From B21-G16 sp003644825 [NCBI: Candidatus Zhuqueibacterota bacterium] (GTDB taxonomy: Bacteria > SM23-31 > B21-G16): 6,191 nt of DNA. This document shows positions 1 through 6,037 of the stretch, in pieces. Each line of letters begins with the position of its first letter. Positions within the stretch are counted from its first letter, which is position 1. The DNA lies in assembly GCA_003644825.1 (NCBI GenBank), contig QNDJ01000118.1, positions 1-6,191 of the forward strand. Direction: 5' to 3'. Under the pieces are notes generated by a model. The model searched no databases and was not told the DNA's origin. It saw nothing but the letters and a program-made list of their open reading frames with translations. The position numbers and the translations under genes were made by a program.

Positions 1-2922
1 GTTTTAATATATGGGACAAATCTGGGAGGTTATAGAGCAGGTTATGCCCTCTGTAAAAAGGGATATAAAGTAATTTTACTGAATCGTGGTTCTTATGTAG
101 ATGATAAAAAGTATCAGGCATTAGCTCAACTTCCTCTTGATTTTTGCTGGATTTGTGGTCATATGCCGCAGCGTTTATTCAAGTCAATTGGTTGTATGCA
201 GGATTATTATAATGCTGAACTTCTTGAAGTTTCTGGTAAAGCAGGAAACTTTAAGGTAAAGTTCAGAAAAAAAGACCAGATAGTAAACAACTTTATATGC
301 ACAGAATGCAACAAATGTATCGAAGTATGCCCGATAGAAAGAGATGGCCAGAAAGCTATTTTTGTTCATCCAGAAGTTGCCTGGGAGAATATCTATCTGA
401 TAGACTATGAATCCTGCACAAAATGTGGGAAATGTGAGGAAATTTGCCCTACAGGGGCATTGAAAATAGAGAAACCTGTTGAAATCTTAGAAGCTGATGT
501 TGGGGCTATTATCCTTGCCCCTGAATTTGACGAACCTTCATCCGAAGATTTAGTTGAGTTTGGGTATGGTAAATCACCAAATGTTGTTAAGAACTCGGAA
601 ATCAGCAGAAAATCACTTCTAACAAATTTTGTAAAAGATTCTGTTAAGTTGCCTTCAGGAAAAATACCTAAAAAATTTAGTATAATTATCACCCCACATT
701 TTAATAAACCTGGAGTAGAGTATGAAAATTACAATCTCAGTATTAGTGCGATATATAGAGGGTATAAAATAAAAGAAATTATACCGGATTCAGACGTTAC
801 AATATATCTTAAGGATTATCGAGGTTTTGGTAAAAGACACTATAGATGGTATGAGAAGGCTCTGGATACTGGCGTAAAAGTAGAAAGAGTGGAAGAACTA
901 AAAGTAATCCCTGAAAATAAAGATTCGGTTAGAATAGAGTATAAGAAAAATGGAAAGCTTTCAGGTGAATCATCCGAGTTAATTATACTAATAACAGGGC
1001 AAAAGTCCCCATCCCTGATGAAAAATTTATCAAAAATTTGTGGAATAGAGGCTGATAAAAATGGATTCTGTAAAATAAGACCATTTTCGGTCTGTGAAAC
1101 AACCGTTGATGGTATATTCGCGGTGGGCGAGTTTTCCGGTCCAAAAGGAAATCCAGAAACTATATGGGAAGGTTGTGCAGCATTAACTGAAACATTAAAA
1201 TATCTTGGTGAAAAAAGTTTTAAACCTGCTTCTCCTCCGGTTCTTAAAAATGTTAGTGGTGAAAAACAGCGTATAGGTGTATTTATATGTAGTTGTTTTG
1301 GATTATTTAAAGAAAAGGTTGATTTAAATGAATTGGTAAAGAGTGTAAAAACCATCCGGGGTGTAAACCATGTTGAAGTAATTGAAGCTTGTTGCACACC
1401 ACCTACTATAAAAGAAACATCAGAAAAAATAAAAAAATCAGGTGTAAATAGAGTTGTTCTTGCTGTTTGTACACCTTTACAAAAGTTACTTAAATATCGA
1501 AAAGCTGTTATGATGGCAGGATTAAACCCTCTCCTGTGTGAATTTATACGTTTTCGAGAAGATGTAATAAATGTTCACAATAATAGCAAAGAGATGATTA
1601 AAAAAGCTTTTTATCTTATTAAAAGTGGTGTGGAAAGAGCTAAGGAAGGAACCCAGCTACCTGTACCTTCAGGTTCATTTATTTCATCTGTTCTTATTAT
1701 TGGTGGTGGTCTTTCAGGTATGATTTGTGCAAAAGAAATTGCTAATAACGGTTTTTCCGTTACAATTATAGAAAAAAATGACAAAATTGGTAATAATAAC
1801 AGATATTTAAATAAAGAACAAAAAAAATATCTGAGCAAGCTAATAACTGATGTTGAGAGTAATTCAAATATATGTGTATATTTAAATTCAGAAATTAAGC
1901 ATGTTGAGGGTTATGCTGGTAATTTTGAAGTTGACATAAAATCGAAAAATGAAAATATAAAAATAAAATCAGGTATGATAATTATAGCTACTGGTGGAAA
2001 GGAGTATATCCCTGAAAATTATCTTTATGGTAAAGACCCCAGAGTAATCACTCAATCTGAACTTTTAGAAAAAATTGAAAACAGTAAGGATTTTGTTCCG
2101 GATAAAGTTGTAATGATTCAGTGTGTTGGCTCAAAAAACGATCAACATCCATATTGTTCACGGGTTTGTTGTAATCAAGCATTGAATAATGCAATTTATT
2201 TACAGAAAAGAGGAGCAGAAGTAACAATTTTTTATAGAGATATTACAGCTTATGGTAATGAAGATTATTATGGCGATGCTTTGGAATCGGGTATTAAATT
2301 TATAAATTTTGATAAGGAAGATTATCCTGAAGTTAAGAAAAATGGAGAGCAGCTTGAAGTAACATTATCAAATGGAACAAATTTAATGGCAGACCTCGTG
2401 GTGTTAAGCACCGGCATTATACCAGATGAGGAAAATAACAGGAAATTATCAAAGATACTGGGATTTCCGCTGGATCAGGATGGATTTTTTGATAGTGATG
2501 TAAATTCCTATCCTTTTGAAGAAGCAATTAAAAGATTAACAAAACCTTTCGAACTTGCCACCAATGGTATTTTTCCGGTTGGTCTTGCCCATTCACCAAG
2601 GAATTTTGAGGAATCCATTCTTACAGCAAAAGATGCTGCAGGAAGGGCGCTTGTAATGCTTGGTAAGAAAAGTATACCTCCACCAAATGCGATGTATATT
2701 GCTGAAGTAAAGGAACAATTATGTATGGGGTGTGGGTTATGCGTTGATGCCTGTCCATATTCTGCAAGATATATTGATGAAGAGAAGAAAATTGCAGTTG
2801 TTGTACCATATTTGTGTGATTCCTGTGGTTCCTGTGTAGCGGCCTGCCCTAATGATGCTTCTTATTTGAGGGATTTTATGGGCAACCAGACAGTTAATGC
2901 TATTGATGCACTACTAATATAA
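1..2922 (+). CDS. hdrA: Double HdrA-like FAD/iron-sulfur subunit (5' end cut by window edge)
   Basis: HdrA-family core subunit for flavin-based electron bifurcation, cytoplasmic, with no membrane segment. The reading frame is open from base 1 (973 residues visible; numbering here starts at base 1). The first ATG at 163 is internal, because homology continues upstream of it. Unit 1 (about 1-403) has a Rossmann-like start (GTNLGG, 5-10), a CxxC at 49/52, an inserted ferredoxin domain with two 4Fe-4S motifs (Cys 100/103/106/110 and 139/142/145/149), and a GIFAVG flavin-domain end near 371. An HdrA N-domain follows (about 425-549, starting IGVFICSC). Unit 2 has GGGLSG at 568-573, IATGG near 662, the cluster motif C708/C719/C723/C724, and GIFPVG near 856. 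Two C-terminal 4Fe-4S motifs follow (Cys 908/911/914/918 and 939/942/945/949). Seen: two HdrA-like units in one chain, against roughly 650 residues for ordinary HdrA. Inferred: unit 2 is the flavin-active half. The electron donor and acceptor are unknown. The family call is secure; the exact complex is not. Confidence 0.93.
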   Translation, partial: VLIYGTNLGGYRAGYALCKKGYKVILLNRGSYVDDKKYQALAQLPLDFCWICGHMPQRLFKSIGCMQDYYNAELLEVSGKAGNFKVKFRKKDQIVNNFICTECNKCIEVCPIERDGQKAIFVHPEVAWENIYLIDYESCTKCGKCEEICPTGALKIEKPVEILEADVGAIILAPEFDEPSSEDLVEFGYGKSPNVVKNSEISRKSLLTNFVKDSVKLPSGKIPKKFSIIITPHFNKPGVEYENYNLSISAIYRGYKIKEIIPDSDVTIYLKDYRGFGKRHYRWYEKALDTGVKVERVEELKVIPENKDSVRIEYKKNGKLSGESSELIILITGQKSPSLMKNLSKICGIEADKNGFCKIRPFSVCETTVDGIFAVGEFSGPKGNPETIWEGCAALTETLKYLGEKSFKPASPPVLKNVSGEKQRIGVFICSCFGLFKEKVDLNELVKSVKTIRGVNHVEVIEACCTPPTIKETSEKIKKSGVNRVVLAVCTPLQKLLKYRKAVMMAGLNPLLCEFIRFREDVINVHNNSKEMIKKAFYLIKSGVERAKEGTQLPVPSGSFISSVLIIGGGLSGMICAKEIANNGFSVTIIEKNDKIGNNNRYLNKEQKKYLSKLITDVESNSNICVYLNSEIKHVEGYAGNFEVDIKSKNENIKIKSGMIIIATGGKEYIPENYLYGKDPRVITQSELLEKIENSKDFVPDKVVMIQCVGSKNDQHPYCSRVCCNQALNNAIYLQKRGAEVTIFYRDITAYGNEDYYGDALESGIKFINFDKEDYPEVKKNGEQLEVTLSNGTNLMADLVVLSTGIIPDEENNRKLSKILGFPLDQDGFFDSDVNSYPFEEAIKRLTKPFELATNGIFPVGLAHSPRNFEESILTAKDAAGRALVMLGKKSIPPPNAMYIAEVKEQLCMGCGLCVDACPYSARYIDEEKKIAVVVPYLCDSCGSCVAACPNDASYLRDFMGNQTVNAIDALLI

Positions 2923-2934
2923 CAGGGTATTATT

Positions 2935-3360
2935 ATGAATGATAGTTTTAAACCTAAAATTATTTATTTTTTATGCAGCTGGTGTGGGACCGGTGGTTCA
3001 GAAACTGCATCTGCTTTTGGTTTACATTATCCGGAAAATGTTTTGCCATTCAGGGTAAATTGCACCGGTTCTCTTTCTACTGTATACATACTGAGAGCTT
3101 TTTTAGAGGGTGCAGATGGAGTTGTAATTAGTGGATGTCATCCTGGTGATTGTCATTATAACAATGGTAATTTCCGGGCAAGAAGAAGAGTTGCCATAAT
3201 TAAATCTATTCTGGATACTCTGGGGCTCGAACCAGAAAGAATCTGGTTCAGATATGTAGCACACGGGGAAGGAAAGAGATTTGTGGATACGGCTGCTGAA
3301 TTTAATGATTATATAAAAAAATTGGGACCCAATCCATTGAAGACAAGGAGAGATATATGA
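2935..3360 (+). CDS. mvhD: MvhD/FlpD-type [2Fe-2S] electron-transfer subunit, divergent copy
   Basis: Small soluble subunit of the MvhD (methyl-viologen hydrogenase delta, FlpD) family. In Hdr complexes this family carries a [2Fe-2S] cluster and passes electrons between a dehydrogenase or hydrogenase and HdrA. It has 141 residues, the normal size for a stand-alone MvhD. The five family cysteines are present: C14 and C17 (CSWC), C43, and C68 and C73 in GCHPGDCHY. It differs from the usual pattern after C43, where the family normally has an Arg-Val-Asp-Pro type run and this copy reads GSLST. The segment after CxWC (GTGGSETASAFG) is also unlike the common AADLAG form. It starts 12 nt after the HdrA stop, with only a weak AGGG at 2924-2927 ahead of the ATG, so translation may be partly coupled. 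Its stop overlaps the next start. It is clearly paralogous to the gene at 5612. Inferred: it docks on one half of the double HdrA. Confidence 0.9.
   Translation: MNDSFKPKIIYFLCSWCGTGGSETASAFGLHYPENVLPFRVNCTGSLSTVYILRAFLEGADGVVISGCHPGDCHYNNGNFRARRRVAIIKSILDTLGLEPERIWFRYVAHGEGKRFVDTAAEFNDYIKKLGPNPLKTRRDI
3345..3350 (+). promoter_or_regulatory. Shine-Dalgarno site inside the preceding gene
   Basis: AAGGAG lies 6 nt before the ATG at 3357, within the last codons of the first mvhD-like gene. It supports the ATGA-overlap start of the FrhB-like gene and suggests translational coupling of the two products. Confidence 0.75.
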
Positions 3361-4493
3361 GAGGGGCTATTTTTAAAATCGAAAAAGATTTCGACAAAGA
3401 GATTCGTAACTTTTTAAAAAAGACAATAGTAAAGAAATTTTTTGGAGCTATTCTAATTCCCTGTAAAGTTCCTGCAAATGATTCCTATGCATATTTACTT
3501 ATCAGGGATGAAGCATTAATTGAAAAAGCATCAATACTACCACCTGTGATGCCGATTCAGGGTGGAAGAGTACTGAAAAGTTTTACGAGACTGGGAAAGA
3601 TAGATGCTAAAGTTGCTGTAATTATGCGCCCCTGTGAAATAAGGGCTTCAATTGAGCTTTCTAAATTAGAGCAGGTAGATTTGACAAATGTTACATTGAT
3701 AAGTGTAGATTGCCCCGGTGTAATTCCTCTATCTGATTATCTTGAAGATCCAGTTAAAGGAACAGATACTTTTAAAGAAGCTTTTAAGACGTGGGAAAGT
3801 GATTCAGTTAGAGAGTTATGCAAAGTATGCTATAATTTTACTCTGACAGGTTCGGACCTTCACATAGGAATACTGGGAAGTGAACAGGGTAATTTATTTC
3901 TTATACCGGTAAGTGAAAAAGGCAGAAATTTACTGGATTTTTTTAATATTAATTATGAAAATGATATATCTTCCTGGGAAAATATTGTGAAGAAAAAAGA
4001 AGATGAGAGAAAAATAAAAAGAAAAGAATTTCGAGAAAATTTAAGGCAAGAAATTGAAGGAATAGATAATCTTCTTAAGACGTTTAGCGATTGTTTAAAC
4101 TGTCATAACTGTATGAGGGTATGCCCTATTTGTTATTGTCGTCAATGTTTTTTTGATTCTGATGCATTAAACCTTCCGTCTACAAACTATATTAAGAGAG
4201 CAGAGAATAGAGGGAGTATTAAATTCCCACCTGAAACATTGCTTTTTCATCTGGGCAGAATGTCTCATATGATTACTTCCTGCGTTTCCTGTGGTTCCTG
4301 TGAAGATGCCTGTCCTGTTTCTCTACCGATATCCAGGGTTTTTAGTTTTGTTGCTGAAAATGTTCAGAACTTATTTAATTATGTGCCAGGAATGAGTGTT
4401 AAAGACCCTGTTCCAACGATAACTTATGAAGAAGAGGAATTAAAAGAATTTGAAAATCCATATATAGAAACTTATAATATACAGAGGATGTAG
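3357..4493 (+). CDS. FrhB/FdhB-type iron-sulfur flavoprotein subunit, copy 1
   Basis: Member of the family of F420-reducing hydrogenase beta and formate dehydrogenase beta subunits, 378 residues, soluble. The N-terminal part (about 1-200) matches the family core: a PPVMPIQGGR segment near 62-71, the RPCEIRA motif with C93, C119 in VDCPG, and a C155/C158 pair. A charged, probably helical linker (about 205-235) precedes a cysteine-rich C-terminus. This holds C246/C249/C252/C256 followed by C259/C261/C264 (CPICYCxxC), then a second 4Fe-4S motif at C309/C312/C315/C319. In methanogen relatives this subunit binds FAD and moves a hydride to or from F420. Nothing here shows F420 use, and bacterial relatives are often annotated formate dehydrogenase beta without proof. 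It overlaps mvhD by 4 nt and is followed after 3 nt by its paralogue, so it is surely part of the same complex or pathway. The substrate is unknown. Confidence 0.87.
   Translation: MRGAIFKIEKDFDKEIRNFLKKTIVKKFFGAILIPCKVPANDSYAYLLIRDEALIEKASILPPVMPIQGGRVLKSFTRLGKIDAKVAVIMRPCEIRASIELSKLEQVDLTNVTLISVDCPGVIPLSDYLEDPVKGTDTFKEAFKTWESDSVRELCKVCYNFTLTGSDLHIGILGSEQGNLFLIPVSEKGRNLLDFFNINYENDISSWENIVKKKEDERKIKRKEFRENLRQEIEGIDNLLKTFSDCLNCHNCMRVCPICYCRQCFFDSDALNLPSTNYIKRAENRGSIKFPPETLLFHLGRMSHMITSCVSCGSCEDACPVSLPISRVFSFVAENVQNLFNYVPGMSVKDPVPTITYEEEELKEFENPYIETYNIQRM
4483..4488 (+). promoter_or_regulatory. Shine-Dalgarno site for the second FrhB-like gene
   Basis: AGAGGA lies 8 nt before the ATG at 4497 and overlaps the last codons of the preceding gene. 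It supports the start chosen and continuous translation across the 3-nt gap. Confidence 0.65.
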
Positions 4494-4496
4494 AAA

Positions 4497-5600
4497 ATGT
4501 CAAAAACATTATATATAGATGAGAATGTGAACGATGGAATTAAAAAGTTTCTCAGGTGTATTCTGGAGAATGGAAAGGTAAAAGGAGTTTTAACACTTAT
4601 AAATGAGGGAGAAAAAATCGCGTATTCTCTTATTTCAAACCCTGAGCTTATAAAATATACTGTTCCATTGTATCCGATAATGCCGTTGAATGCTGCAAGG
4701 AGTTTATCACACATTACCTTATCAGAACCGATAAGTGAGCCTATTGCAGTCGTTATTAAACCCTGTGAAATAAGGGCTTTTATAGAGCTTGTAAAAAGAA
4801 GTCAGGGGTCTGTTGAAAATATCTTTTTTATCAGTTTTACCTGCGGCGGTGTATATCCGATTAAAATGAATGTTAATGGAAAAATCAATGAAAAGATAGA
4901 TAATTTCTGGAGGTTAATCGAAAAGAACGAAATTGATGCTGATTTACGAGCATCCTGTAAGGTGTGCAAAGAATTTATACCGTATAATACTGATATGACT
5001 ATTTTTCTGGCAGGAAATAAGGAAATAAATAATCAATGCAGAATATTTTTAAATACAGATAGGGCTGAAGATTTTGCAGAATCTACAGATGGAAATATTG
5101 TACAGGATAAAATAAATACAGAATTAATTGATGAGTTGAAAGTAAAGAGATTGGAAGAAAGAAAAAAATTGTTTGAGGATAAAAAGATAGAAAAGCTCGG
5201 GCTTGAAGGGTTGATAGATATTTTTGGGAGATGTATAAGTTGTCATGCCTGTGGTAATGCCTGCCCTATTTGTTATTGTAGCTTATGTTATTTTGATTCT
5301 CAGGAGAGTGAATATAAGCCAGTAGATTATGAATCTGAACTGGAAAAAAGAGGAGCAATCAGGGTTCCACCTAACACGGTAACTTATCAGGTTGGGCGTT
5401 TGATTCATGTGGGGATTTCCTGTGTTGGTTGTGGATGTTGTGAGGATGTATGCCCGAGCGAAATACAACTATCTACAATTTTTATAAAAGGAAGCGAATC
5501 TATTCAGGAGAAATTTAATTATATACCGGGTAAAAACCCTGAAGAGTTGATACCAATCTCCACATTTGACATTAAGGAATTTCCTGAAGTAGAAACTTAA
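4497..5600 (+). CDS. FrhB/FdhB-type iron-sulfur flavoprotein subunit, copy 2
   Basis: Paralogue of the preceding gene, 367 residues, same architecture. It has a PIMPLNAAR segment (60-68), the KPCEIRA motif with C90, C116, a C154/C157 pair, and a long charged stretch (about 205-235). The cluster region has C246/C249/C252/C256 plus C259/C261/C264, then C309/C312/C315/C319, the same residue numbers as in copy 1. It also has an extra C314 directly before C315, absent from copy 1. The two copies share motifs (CPICYC, FDS, NYxPG) but differ widely between them, so this is an old duplication, not an assembly artefact. Family knowledge suggests flavin binding plus two 4Fe-4S clusters. The hydride carrier or partner cannot be read from the sequence. 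The gene sits 3 nt after copy 1 and 11 nt before the second mvhD, pointing to co-translation and a shared complex. Confidence 0.87.
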   Translation: MSKTLYIDENVNDGIKKFLRCILENGKVKGVLTLINEGEKIAYSLISNPELIKYTVPLYPIMPLNAARSLSHITLSEPISEPIAVVIKPCEIRAFIELVKRSQGSVENIFFISFTCGGVYPIKMNVNGKINEKIDNFWRLIEKNEIDADLRASCKVCKEFIPYNTDMTIFLAGNKEINNQCRIFLNTDRAEDFAESTDGNIVQDKINTELIDELKVKRLEERKKLFEDKKIEKLGLEGLIDIFGRCISCHACGNACPICYCSLCYFDSQESEYKPVDYESELEKRGAIRVPPNTVTYQVGRLIHVGISCVGCGCCEDVCPSEIQLSTIFIKGSESIQEKFNYIPGKNPEELIPISTFDIKEFPEVET

Positions 5601-5611: not shown

Positions 5612-6037
5612 ATGGAGGAAAATTTTGAGCCAAGATTGGTGGGTTTTATGTGTCGCTGGTGTACCTATCAAGCAGCAGACCTGGCAGGCACAAGTAGAAT
5701 GAAATATCCATCTAACCTTATACCTATAAAGGTGTTGTGTTCCAGTCGGGTTGACCCTTTATGGGTATTAATAGCTTTTATGAGAGGTGCTGATGGTGTT
5801 CTTGTTGCAGGCTGTCATCCGGGTGATTGTCATTATCAGGAGGGTAATTATCATACACGAAGAAGATTTGTTCTTGTAAAAAATGTATTTGATTCTCTTG
5901 GGCTTGAGTCTGAAAGATTAAGACTTTCCTGGATTTCCGCCTCTGAAGGAAGAAAATTCGTTGAAGTAACTTCTGAATTTATAAAAAATATTAAAGAAAA
6001 GGGCCCTAATCCAGCAAAAAAAGCTATATTTTTATAA
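5612..6037 (+). CDS. mvhD: MvhD/FlpD-type [2Fe-2S] electron-transfer subunit, canonical copy
   Basis: Second MvhD-family subunit, also 141 residues, with its cysteines at the same residue numbers as the first copy: C14 and C17 (CRWC), C43, and C68 and C73 in GCHPGDCHY. Unlike the first copy it keeps the ordinary family pattern throughout: an AADLAGTSR segment after CxWC, SSRVDP after C43, ADGVLVAGC before the last cysteines, and an SASEG motif near 103-107. Both copies end with a similar GPNPxK tail. The role known for the family is electron transfer through a [2Fe-2S] cluster between a partner oxidoreductase and HdrA. It is the last gene of the operon, 11 nt after the FrhB-like gene. Because it is canonical, it is the better candidate to serve the flavin-competent half of the double HdrA; that pairing is inference. 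Confidence 0.93.
   Translation: MEENFEPRLVGFMCRWCTYQAADLAGTSRMKYPSNLIPIKVLCSSRVDPLWVLIAFMRGADGVLVAGCHPGDCHYQEGNYHTRRRFVLVKNVFDSLGLESERLRLSWISASEGRKFVEVTSEFIKNIKEKGPNPAKKAIFL

Follow-up and report, generated by a model that had tools for sequence, protein, structure and literature searches.

A subfamily of fused type II HdrA proteins in four phyla whose first unit looks flavin-free

The stretch of DNA analysed here (the window) is one entire contig of 6,191 bases, QNDJ01000118.1, from the Candidatus Zhuqueibacterota bacterium assembly GCA_003644825.1 (2.48 Mb in 493 contigs, 83.6% complete), and it holds five genes on the plus strand, the first of which encodes two HdrA-like units fused in one chain. 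This protein was found to be one of ten members, in four phyla, of a subfamily that is probably an offshoot of type II (fused) HdrA in which each chain forms its own one-flavin heterodimer, i.e., a self-complementing HdrA hub. The first unit (N-unit) retains the HdrA fold, the CxxC motif and an inserted ferredoxin domain, with every tested flavin adenine dinucleotide (FAD) and cluster motif replaced except the last glycine motif, and the second unit (C-unit) is the sole holder of a normal FAD loop, a four-cysteine cluster motif, an N-terminal cluster domain and a C-terminal ferredoxin. Judged from the sequences, the N-unit of the subfamily looks flavin-free with its iron-sulfur (Fe-S) parts retained, and the two fused copies seem to function together as one asymmetric enzyme. 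The gene and its units are located as follows:

1–2922, plus strand: fused two-unit HdrA-like protein (open frame; HdrA2 model NF040770; N-terminus from the closest relative, L025)
1–1245, plus strand: N-unit, residues 1–415, a TrxR-like fold with an inserted two-cluster ferredoxin, without N-terminal domain and without C-terminal ferredoxin
1246–2919, plus strand: C-unit, residues 416–973, an N-terminal Fe-S domain, a TrxR-like domain without inserted ferredoxin, and a C-terminal ferredoxin

Frame 1 was shown to be open from 1 to 2922, giving a protein of 973 amino acids, and both units had an HdrA fold in the predicted structure (predicted local distance difference test, pLDDT, 80.1; predicted template modelling score, pTM, 0.78), which confirms the fusion of two HdrA-like units described in the initial annotation of the window. 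The N-unit model (residues 1–405) aligned with 8rvu_a over 401 residues (VIA-align Z 36.7, root-mean-square deviation 3.1) and the C-unit model (residues 422–973) with 8rvy_A over 531 residues (Z 28.1, root-mean-square deviation 4.5); in the model, the HdrA fold is retained in the N-unit despite the replacement of its motifs. NF040770 matched the fused protein in three stretches with 465.6 bits, below its curated cut-off of 1100, and the NCBIfam HdrA equivalogs NF041778 and NF041891 gave 358.7 and 330.8 bits, below their curated cut-offs of 1400 and 1300, respectively.

First units were aligned to the HdrA of M. thermolithotrophicus. The FAD motifs bear their customary names: the GxGxxG loop, the acidic end of strand 2, the ATG-like glycine and the last glycine motif. 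From 91 fused proteins, 17 were excluded from the comparison of N-units due to an incomplete first-unit start or a large insert, which left the 10 subfamily members and 64 ordinary type II proteins. The N-unit of the window contains:

10–36, plus strand: YGTNLGGYR (residues 4–12) where the FAD loop GxGxxG is expected, by alignment
79–102, plus strand: LNRGSYVD (residues 27–34) where the acidic end of strand 2 (VEK) and GG are expected, by alignment
145–156, plus strand: C49-x-x-C52, counterpart of HdrA C194/C197, present in all ten subfamily N-units
298–447, plus strand: inserted ferredoxin domain with eight cysteines (100, 103, 106, 110, 139, 142, 145, 149)
604–606, plus strand: S202 at the place of E356, by alignment
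691–774, plus strand: residues 231–258, a segment substituting the four-cysteine cluster motif, with Y252 at the place of K409, by alignment

At the place of the FAD loop, all ten subfamily N-units showed GTN[LM]xG (GTNLGG in the window), whereas 62 of the 64 ordinary N-units had GxGxxG. LNR was found at the place of VEK in 10/10 members, within an invariant set of residues (L27, N28, R29, G30, Y32, V33 and D34), and of the 64 ordinary N-units, 57 had E or D as the acidic residue of strand 2 and the other 7 had Q. The ATG-like motif, APE in the window, ended in E or T in all ten members, and its glycine was retained in 64/64 ordinary N-units. The altered FAD motifs had been recognised in the initial annotation, as had the CxxC (49/52) and the inserted two-cluster ferredoxin, all eight cysteines of which were kept in 10/10 members. 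It had overlooked that the N-unit also lacks the four-cysteine motif and E356/K409. The place of E356 was occupied by S, A or V in the ten members and by E in all 64 ordinary N-units, the place of K409 by Y in the ten and by K in the 64, and all four cluster cysteines were replaced in 10/10 members and kept in 63 of the 64 ordinary N-units. An alignment-free count agreed, the stretch from the ferredoxin to about residue 340 being free of cysteine in nine members and having one in the tenth (L127). Besides, a Rossmann FAD/NAD start was detected with Pfam in 5/5 ordinary N-units versus 1/5 subfamily N-units (L126, weak). FAD motifs in both units are reported for known type II members, outside the printed definition of the type, and the N-unit of the window does not have them. 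An ordinary two-flavin type II HdrA whose N-unit binds FAD through an unusual loop would agree with the retained fold (Z 36.7 to HdrA), the retained last FAD motif and the remaining FAD_binding_2 score of L126, but 10/10 members have jointly lost both the loop glycine and the ATG-like glycine, together with E356, K409 and the adjacent cluster, and we consider this explanation quite improbable.

The subfamily was delimited from a scan for related loci, of which the best 80 were retained as a sample. With in-frame TGA read as a residue during frame calling, a fused frame was found in 79 of these 80 loci; the unit junction was free of in-frame TGA in the 64 ordinary type II proteins with complete N-units, and no fused frame was obtained for L067, L013, L014, L015 and L131. 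N-unit identity to the window was 52–70% within the subfamily versus 27–30% for the other HdrA proteins of the genome carrying L025 (Chloroflexi bacterium B30_G15), itself a member with 64% identity to the window protein. Subfamily members were found in 7/9 genomes of one small phylum and in 1/2 of another. In the draws of genomes, for which only part of the candidates per genome was scored, the subfamily was present in 1/6 genomes of the window's own phylum, in 1/400 from the phylum of L025 (the L025 genome itself), and in 4/193 and 4/385 of two broad draws that overlap with genomes counted elsewhere. In the N-unit and the C-unit tree alike, the subfamily was monophyletic (support 1.0), with stem lengths of 2.0 and 0.91, respectively, as would be expected if the first unit had changed fast once and had then become fixed. 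Its placement among type II units had a weak support of 0.512 for the N-units, and none was given for the C-units.

A search for homologues, proposed in the initial annotation, showed that the losses, mostly with the same replacement letters, are shared by 10/10 members across four phyla, and the lone decayed copy that it had named as an alternative is thereby excluded. An N-unit that is a decaying relic or the product of an assembly error is accordingly extremely improbable. The gene is cut by the contig end and the genome has many hdrA paralogues, which would suit such an origin, but the same replacement letters recur in ten genomes of four phyla, the frame is open in all ten members, and identity over the 45 subfamily pairs is 64.6% for the N-units and 60.9% for the C-units; this candidate was rejected on the ten-member alignment. 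The gene is incomplete at its 5′ end since the window is an entire contig, and judged from L025, which begins six residues earlier (MSNEST precedes VLIYGTN), about six codons would be missing. The attempt to link the contig start to another contig via an overlap was given up, as the first 130 bases had no match besides themselves in the source genome.

Conservation within the subfamily was compared by counting invariant columns in segments picked by the analyst on the reference numbering, with columns that are not independent and with 7/10 sequences from one phylum. In the N-unit, 36 of the 81 columns of the former FAD and cluster segments were invariant versus 54/241 elsewhere (p 0.0003), and in the intact flavin site of the C-unit 32/81 versus 47/226 elsewhere. 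The N-unit site thus appears to be under constraint, because its segments are as conserved as those of the intact site although the flavin letters are gone, and YGTN, LNRGxYVD and YR were identified as new invariant motifs. These results, together with the Rossmann fold retained in the N-unit model, would also fit an N-unit that has swapped its bifurcating flavin and [4Fe-4S] cluster for a conserved ligand site (YGTN/LNRGxYVD/YR), rebuilt for a different nucleotide or cofactor, so that each chain would have two unlike cofactor sites. We regard such a rebuilt site as unlikely: no particular ligand is indicated, the conserved residues may just pack an empty site or support the fold or an interface, and the choice of segments, the dependence between columns and the predominance of one phylum weaken the comparison. 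If it were true, the changed half would still provide the exit through ferredoxin and the cluster ligand for the other unit. The division of labour given in the initial annotation, with the N-unit as Fe-S conduit and the C-unit as flavin site, holds in so far as the N-unit looks flavin-free with its Fe-S parts kept, but "conduit" may undersell this unit, because its former flavin site bears a new set of conserved residues and is not relaxed.

The one-flavin heterodimer that we favour depends on the C-unit, which was shown to contain:

1270–1578, plus strand: N-terminal Fe-S domain with C430, C432, C465 and C490, the four counterparts kept in 10/10 members
1702–1719, plus strand: GGGLSG, the FAD loop, kept in 10/10 members
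2065–2067, plus strand: L689 at the place of E356, by alignment
2122–2172, plus strand: four-cysteine cluster motif C708/C719/C723/C724, kept in 10/10 members
2185–2187, plus strand: N729 at the place of K409, by alignment
2722–2847, plus strand: C-terminal ferredoxin domain with eight cysteines, kept in 10/10 members

The window C-unit also has the IATGG motif and lacks the CxxC and the inserted ferredoxin, all in agreement with the initial annotation, which had interpreted these features as one half of a reciprocal loss. However, the CxxC was missing from the C-units of all fused proteins compared (present in 0/91), a general type II state that had been overlooked. Reciprocal loss in one event was therefore rejected, and only the losses of the N-unit distinguish the subfamily. 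Further sequence comparison showed, beyond what had been annotated, that the window C-unit lacks both E356 (L689) and K409 (N729). Both residues were kept in the C-units of 8/10 members and lost only in the window (L, N) and in L025 (Q, R); among the fused proteins outside the subfamily, 65/81 kept both. E356 and K409 are used to separate bifurcating from non-bifurcating HdrA flavins (PMC9430772, PMC12054007), and by this printed criterion the C-unit flavin of the window protein is probably not bifurcating. The proposal that the two halves rebuild one asymmetric HdrA was thus supported in that the cofactor parts sum to one set and the asymmetry was found in 10/10 members, but the window protein would not be an ordinary bifurcating HdrA, because its remaining flavin site lacks E356/K409.

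Other features of the C-unit were observed as well. The counterpart of HdrA C103, present in most ordinary fused proteins, was absent from 10/10 members, and a CC pair (C464/C465) was found in the N-terminal domain of 9/10. In residues 591–600 of the window, the GG behind the VEK-like motif is GN (IGNNN), and L025 retains GG; the window's own C-unit flavin site may be drifting further.

A possible electron path was drawn from the published HdrA path (PMC9012536), with FAD binding by the N-unit judged from its motifs. Electrons would pass from MvhD to the C-terminal ferredoxin and on to the FAD of the C-unit, from where one branch would lead over the four-cysteine cluster towards HdrBC and the other over the C-unit's N-terminal cluster, which C52 of the N-unit would complete, to the N-unit ferredoxin and to soluble ferredoxin. 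Each element of one HdrA would thus be present exactly once in the fused chain. The flavin of the N-unit would be the dispensable one, the type II N-unit having neither its own N-terminal domain nor a C-terminal ferredoxin. In eight of the ten members the remaining flavin would still have the bifurcation pair. For the window and L025, since the pair of the C-unit is lost, the protein would more likely be a one-flavin relay between the MvhD/FdhB-like subunits and ferredoxin, any bifurcation being left to a partner HdrA.

Several observations weigh against this one-flavin heterodimer. The last FAD motif (GIFAVGE) is still present in the N-unit, and the N-unit of L126 exceeds the Pfam cut-off with FAD_binding_2. 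The replaced cofactor segments of the N-unit are not relaxed, which would not be needed for a mere scaffold. The CxxC stretch (residues 45–56) was modelled at a pLDDT below 50, so that the position of C52 in the model cannot be assigned. Seven of the ten members belong to one phylum. N-units were more alike than C-units in 39/45 subfamily pairs, but this gives weak support because ordinary pairs show the same trend (1448/2016), and it was set aside as a proof of function. Besides, the window, whose fused gene is truncated by the contig boundary, had no HdrB, HdrC or partner HdrA, and in the window genome the partner HdrA known from other members gave partial matches or matches of other architecture, none of full length.

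The fusion itself is already published for type II or fused HdrA, as is the distribution of CxxC and inserted ferredoxin to one unit and of N-terminal domain and C-terminal ferredoxin to the other: such proteins are described in PMC12054007 and PMC9012536 and listed in archaea in PMC11237513, and 79 of the best 80 loci were fused. Type II HdrA (class A3) is described as two fused classes, which correspond to the two units of the window, and K409 and E356 are reported in 75% of type II sequences, with two bifurcation sites suggested and the fused HdrA said to be biochemically unstudied (PMC12054007). The window protein resembles it in having two TrxR-like units per chain and an adjoining MvhD, a first unit with an inserted ferredoxin and without N-terminal domain and C-terminal ferredoxin, and a second unit with both of these domains and without inserted ferredoxin or CxxC. 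It differs in that the first unit of the subfamily lacks the tested FAD-loop, cluster and E/K motifs in 10/10 members, and in the window the second unit also lacks E/K.

For the fused or tandem HdrA of anaerobic methanotrophic (ANME) archaea (PMC9012536), complementarity between Cys197 and the N-terminal domain is described, with C197 ligating the N-terminal cluster in the opposite unit, and the fused chain is proposed to be its own heterodimer; these features and the FdhB-like partners are shared with the window. However, every HdrA in that set is said to retain its FAD residues, which the N-unit of the subfamily has lost, and the text places the N-terminal domain of the ANME fusions in the first unit, whereas the window has it in the second. 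The acetogen HdrA of Sporomusa ovata and Moorella thermoacetica (MetFV clusters; PMC9430772) has the same type of second unit, without inserted ferredoxin. A further parallel is that E and K occur in only one of the two flavin sites of S. ovata HdrA, but there it is the first unit that has this site (E160/K216), with two FAD predicted, in contrast to the window with a first unit lacking flavin motifs. The HdrABC-FdhAB and HdrABC-MvhAGD complexes (7bkb, 8rvu, 5odc, 9t1s) share the HdrA fold of both units but have a full HdrA chain for each flavin. In the literature searched, mostly without subscription journals, we found no report of a fused HdrA in which the first unit lacks its flavin; apparently new is that the first unit additionally lacks the FAD loop, the ATG-like glycine, the four-cysteine site, E356 and K409.

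The four genes downstream of the fused gene were identified as:

2935–3360, plus strand: MvhD/FlpD (MvhDa), the direct conserved neighbour (PF02662, E 1.3e-42)
3357–4493, plus strand: FdhB-like Fe-S protein 1 (PF04432, E 3e-7; PDB 9t1s_M FdhB, E 6e-34)
4497–5600, plus strand: FdhB-like Fe-S protein 2 (PF04432, E 2e-6)
5612–6037, plus strand: MvhD/FlpD (MvhDb) (PF02662, E 1.8e-50)

FdhB-like protein 1 also matched the FdhB chains 8rvu_E and 7bkb_E of HdrABC-FdhAB complexes. An MvhD and an FdhB-like partner adjoining the fused HdrA, the latter identified as FdhB by PDB match for protein 1, resemble an HdrABC-type complex; FdhA and hydrogenase genes were absent from the window. Both an MvhD and an FdhB-like gene were found directly downstream of the fused gene in 10/10 members; among the ordinary loci that were long enough, 41/60 had MvhD nearby and 11/50 an FdhB-like gene, counts obtained with the window's own proteins as queries, which distant homologues may escape. 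Upstream of the fused gene, five members from the small phylum have an additional MvhD together with a partner HdrA. Of these partner HdrA copies, four are complete and GltD-inserted, with the FAD loop present, and that of L124 is truncated where its contig ends; all five have E356, K409 and the four cysteines. For L127 and L128, an upstream HdrA was not seen on the available stretch. Further upstream in the clusters of other members, HdrB (CCG domain, L123) and HdrC-like genes were found. Downstream, L025 contains an HdrC-like protein, three more MvhD-like stretches and the beginning of a [NiFe] hydrogenase, and between its hdr and hydrogenase genes (7613–8354) a small gene pair resembling, by appearance, a toxin-antitoxin or PIN-domain pair.

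Some related loci showed an in-frame TGA at the second CxxC position of HdrA (L011 on the minus strand at 9992, L075, L077, L081 and L090), located at position 63 of the fused protein slice in the last four, with NDCSI-TGA-ILAPKM as an example of the context. The TGA at the place of Cys197, where the window has Cys, is most simply read as selenocysteine. In L011, the two units were found as separate adjoining genes in the same genome (minus strand, 8844–10160 and 7135–8838), in the order first-unit type with the in-frame TGA, second-unit type and MvhD, which represents an unfused counterpart of the window gene. L013 was shown to contain a type III-like HdrA with a GltD/NfnB-like insert (4606–7326), followed by an HdrA of the second-unit type, MvhD and the first part of an FdhB-like gene. 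Contigs C303 (start of L014), C344 (end of L015) and C92 (end of L012) all break within the peptide stretch NKPVIDKENCIFFQRGKCKACEKFCS, and it therefore seems that a repeat common to hdrA paralogues breaks the assembly.

Fused HdrA had been proposed to carry two bifurcating flavins per chain (PMC12054007). In the subfamily characterized here, nature would have knocked out the first flavin and left the remaining machinery in place, which would allow a direct test of which flavin, cluster and ferredoxin a fused HdrA needs. In addition, the members that have lost E356/K409 from the C-unit (two) and those that have kept them (eight) would provide a matched pair for testing the role of these residues in bifurcation.

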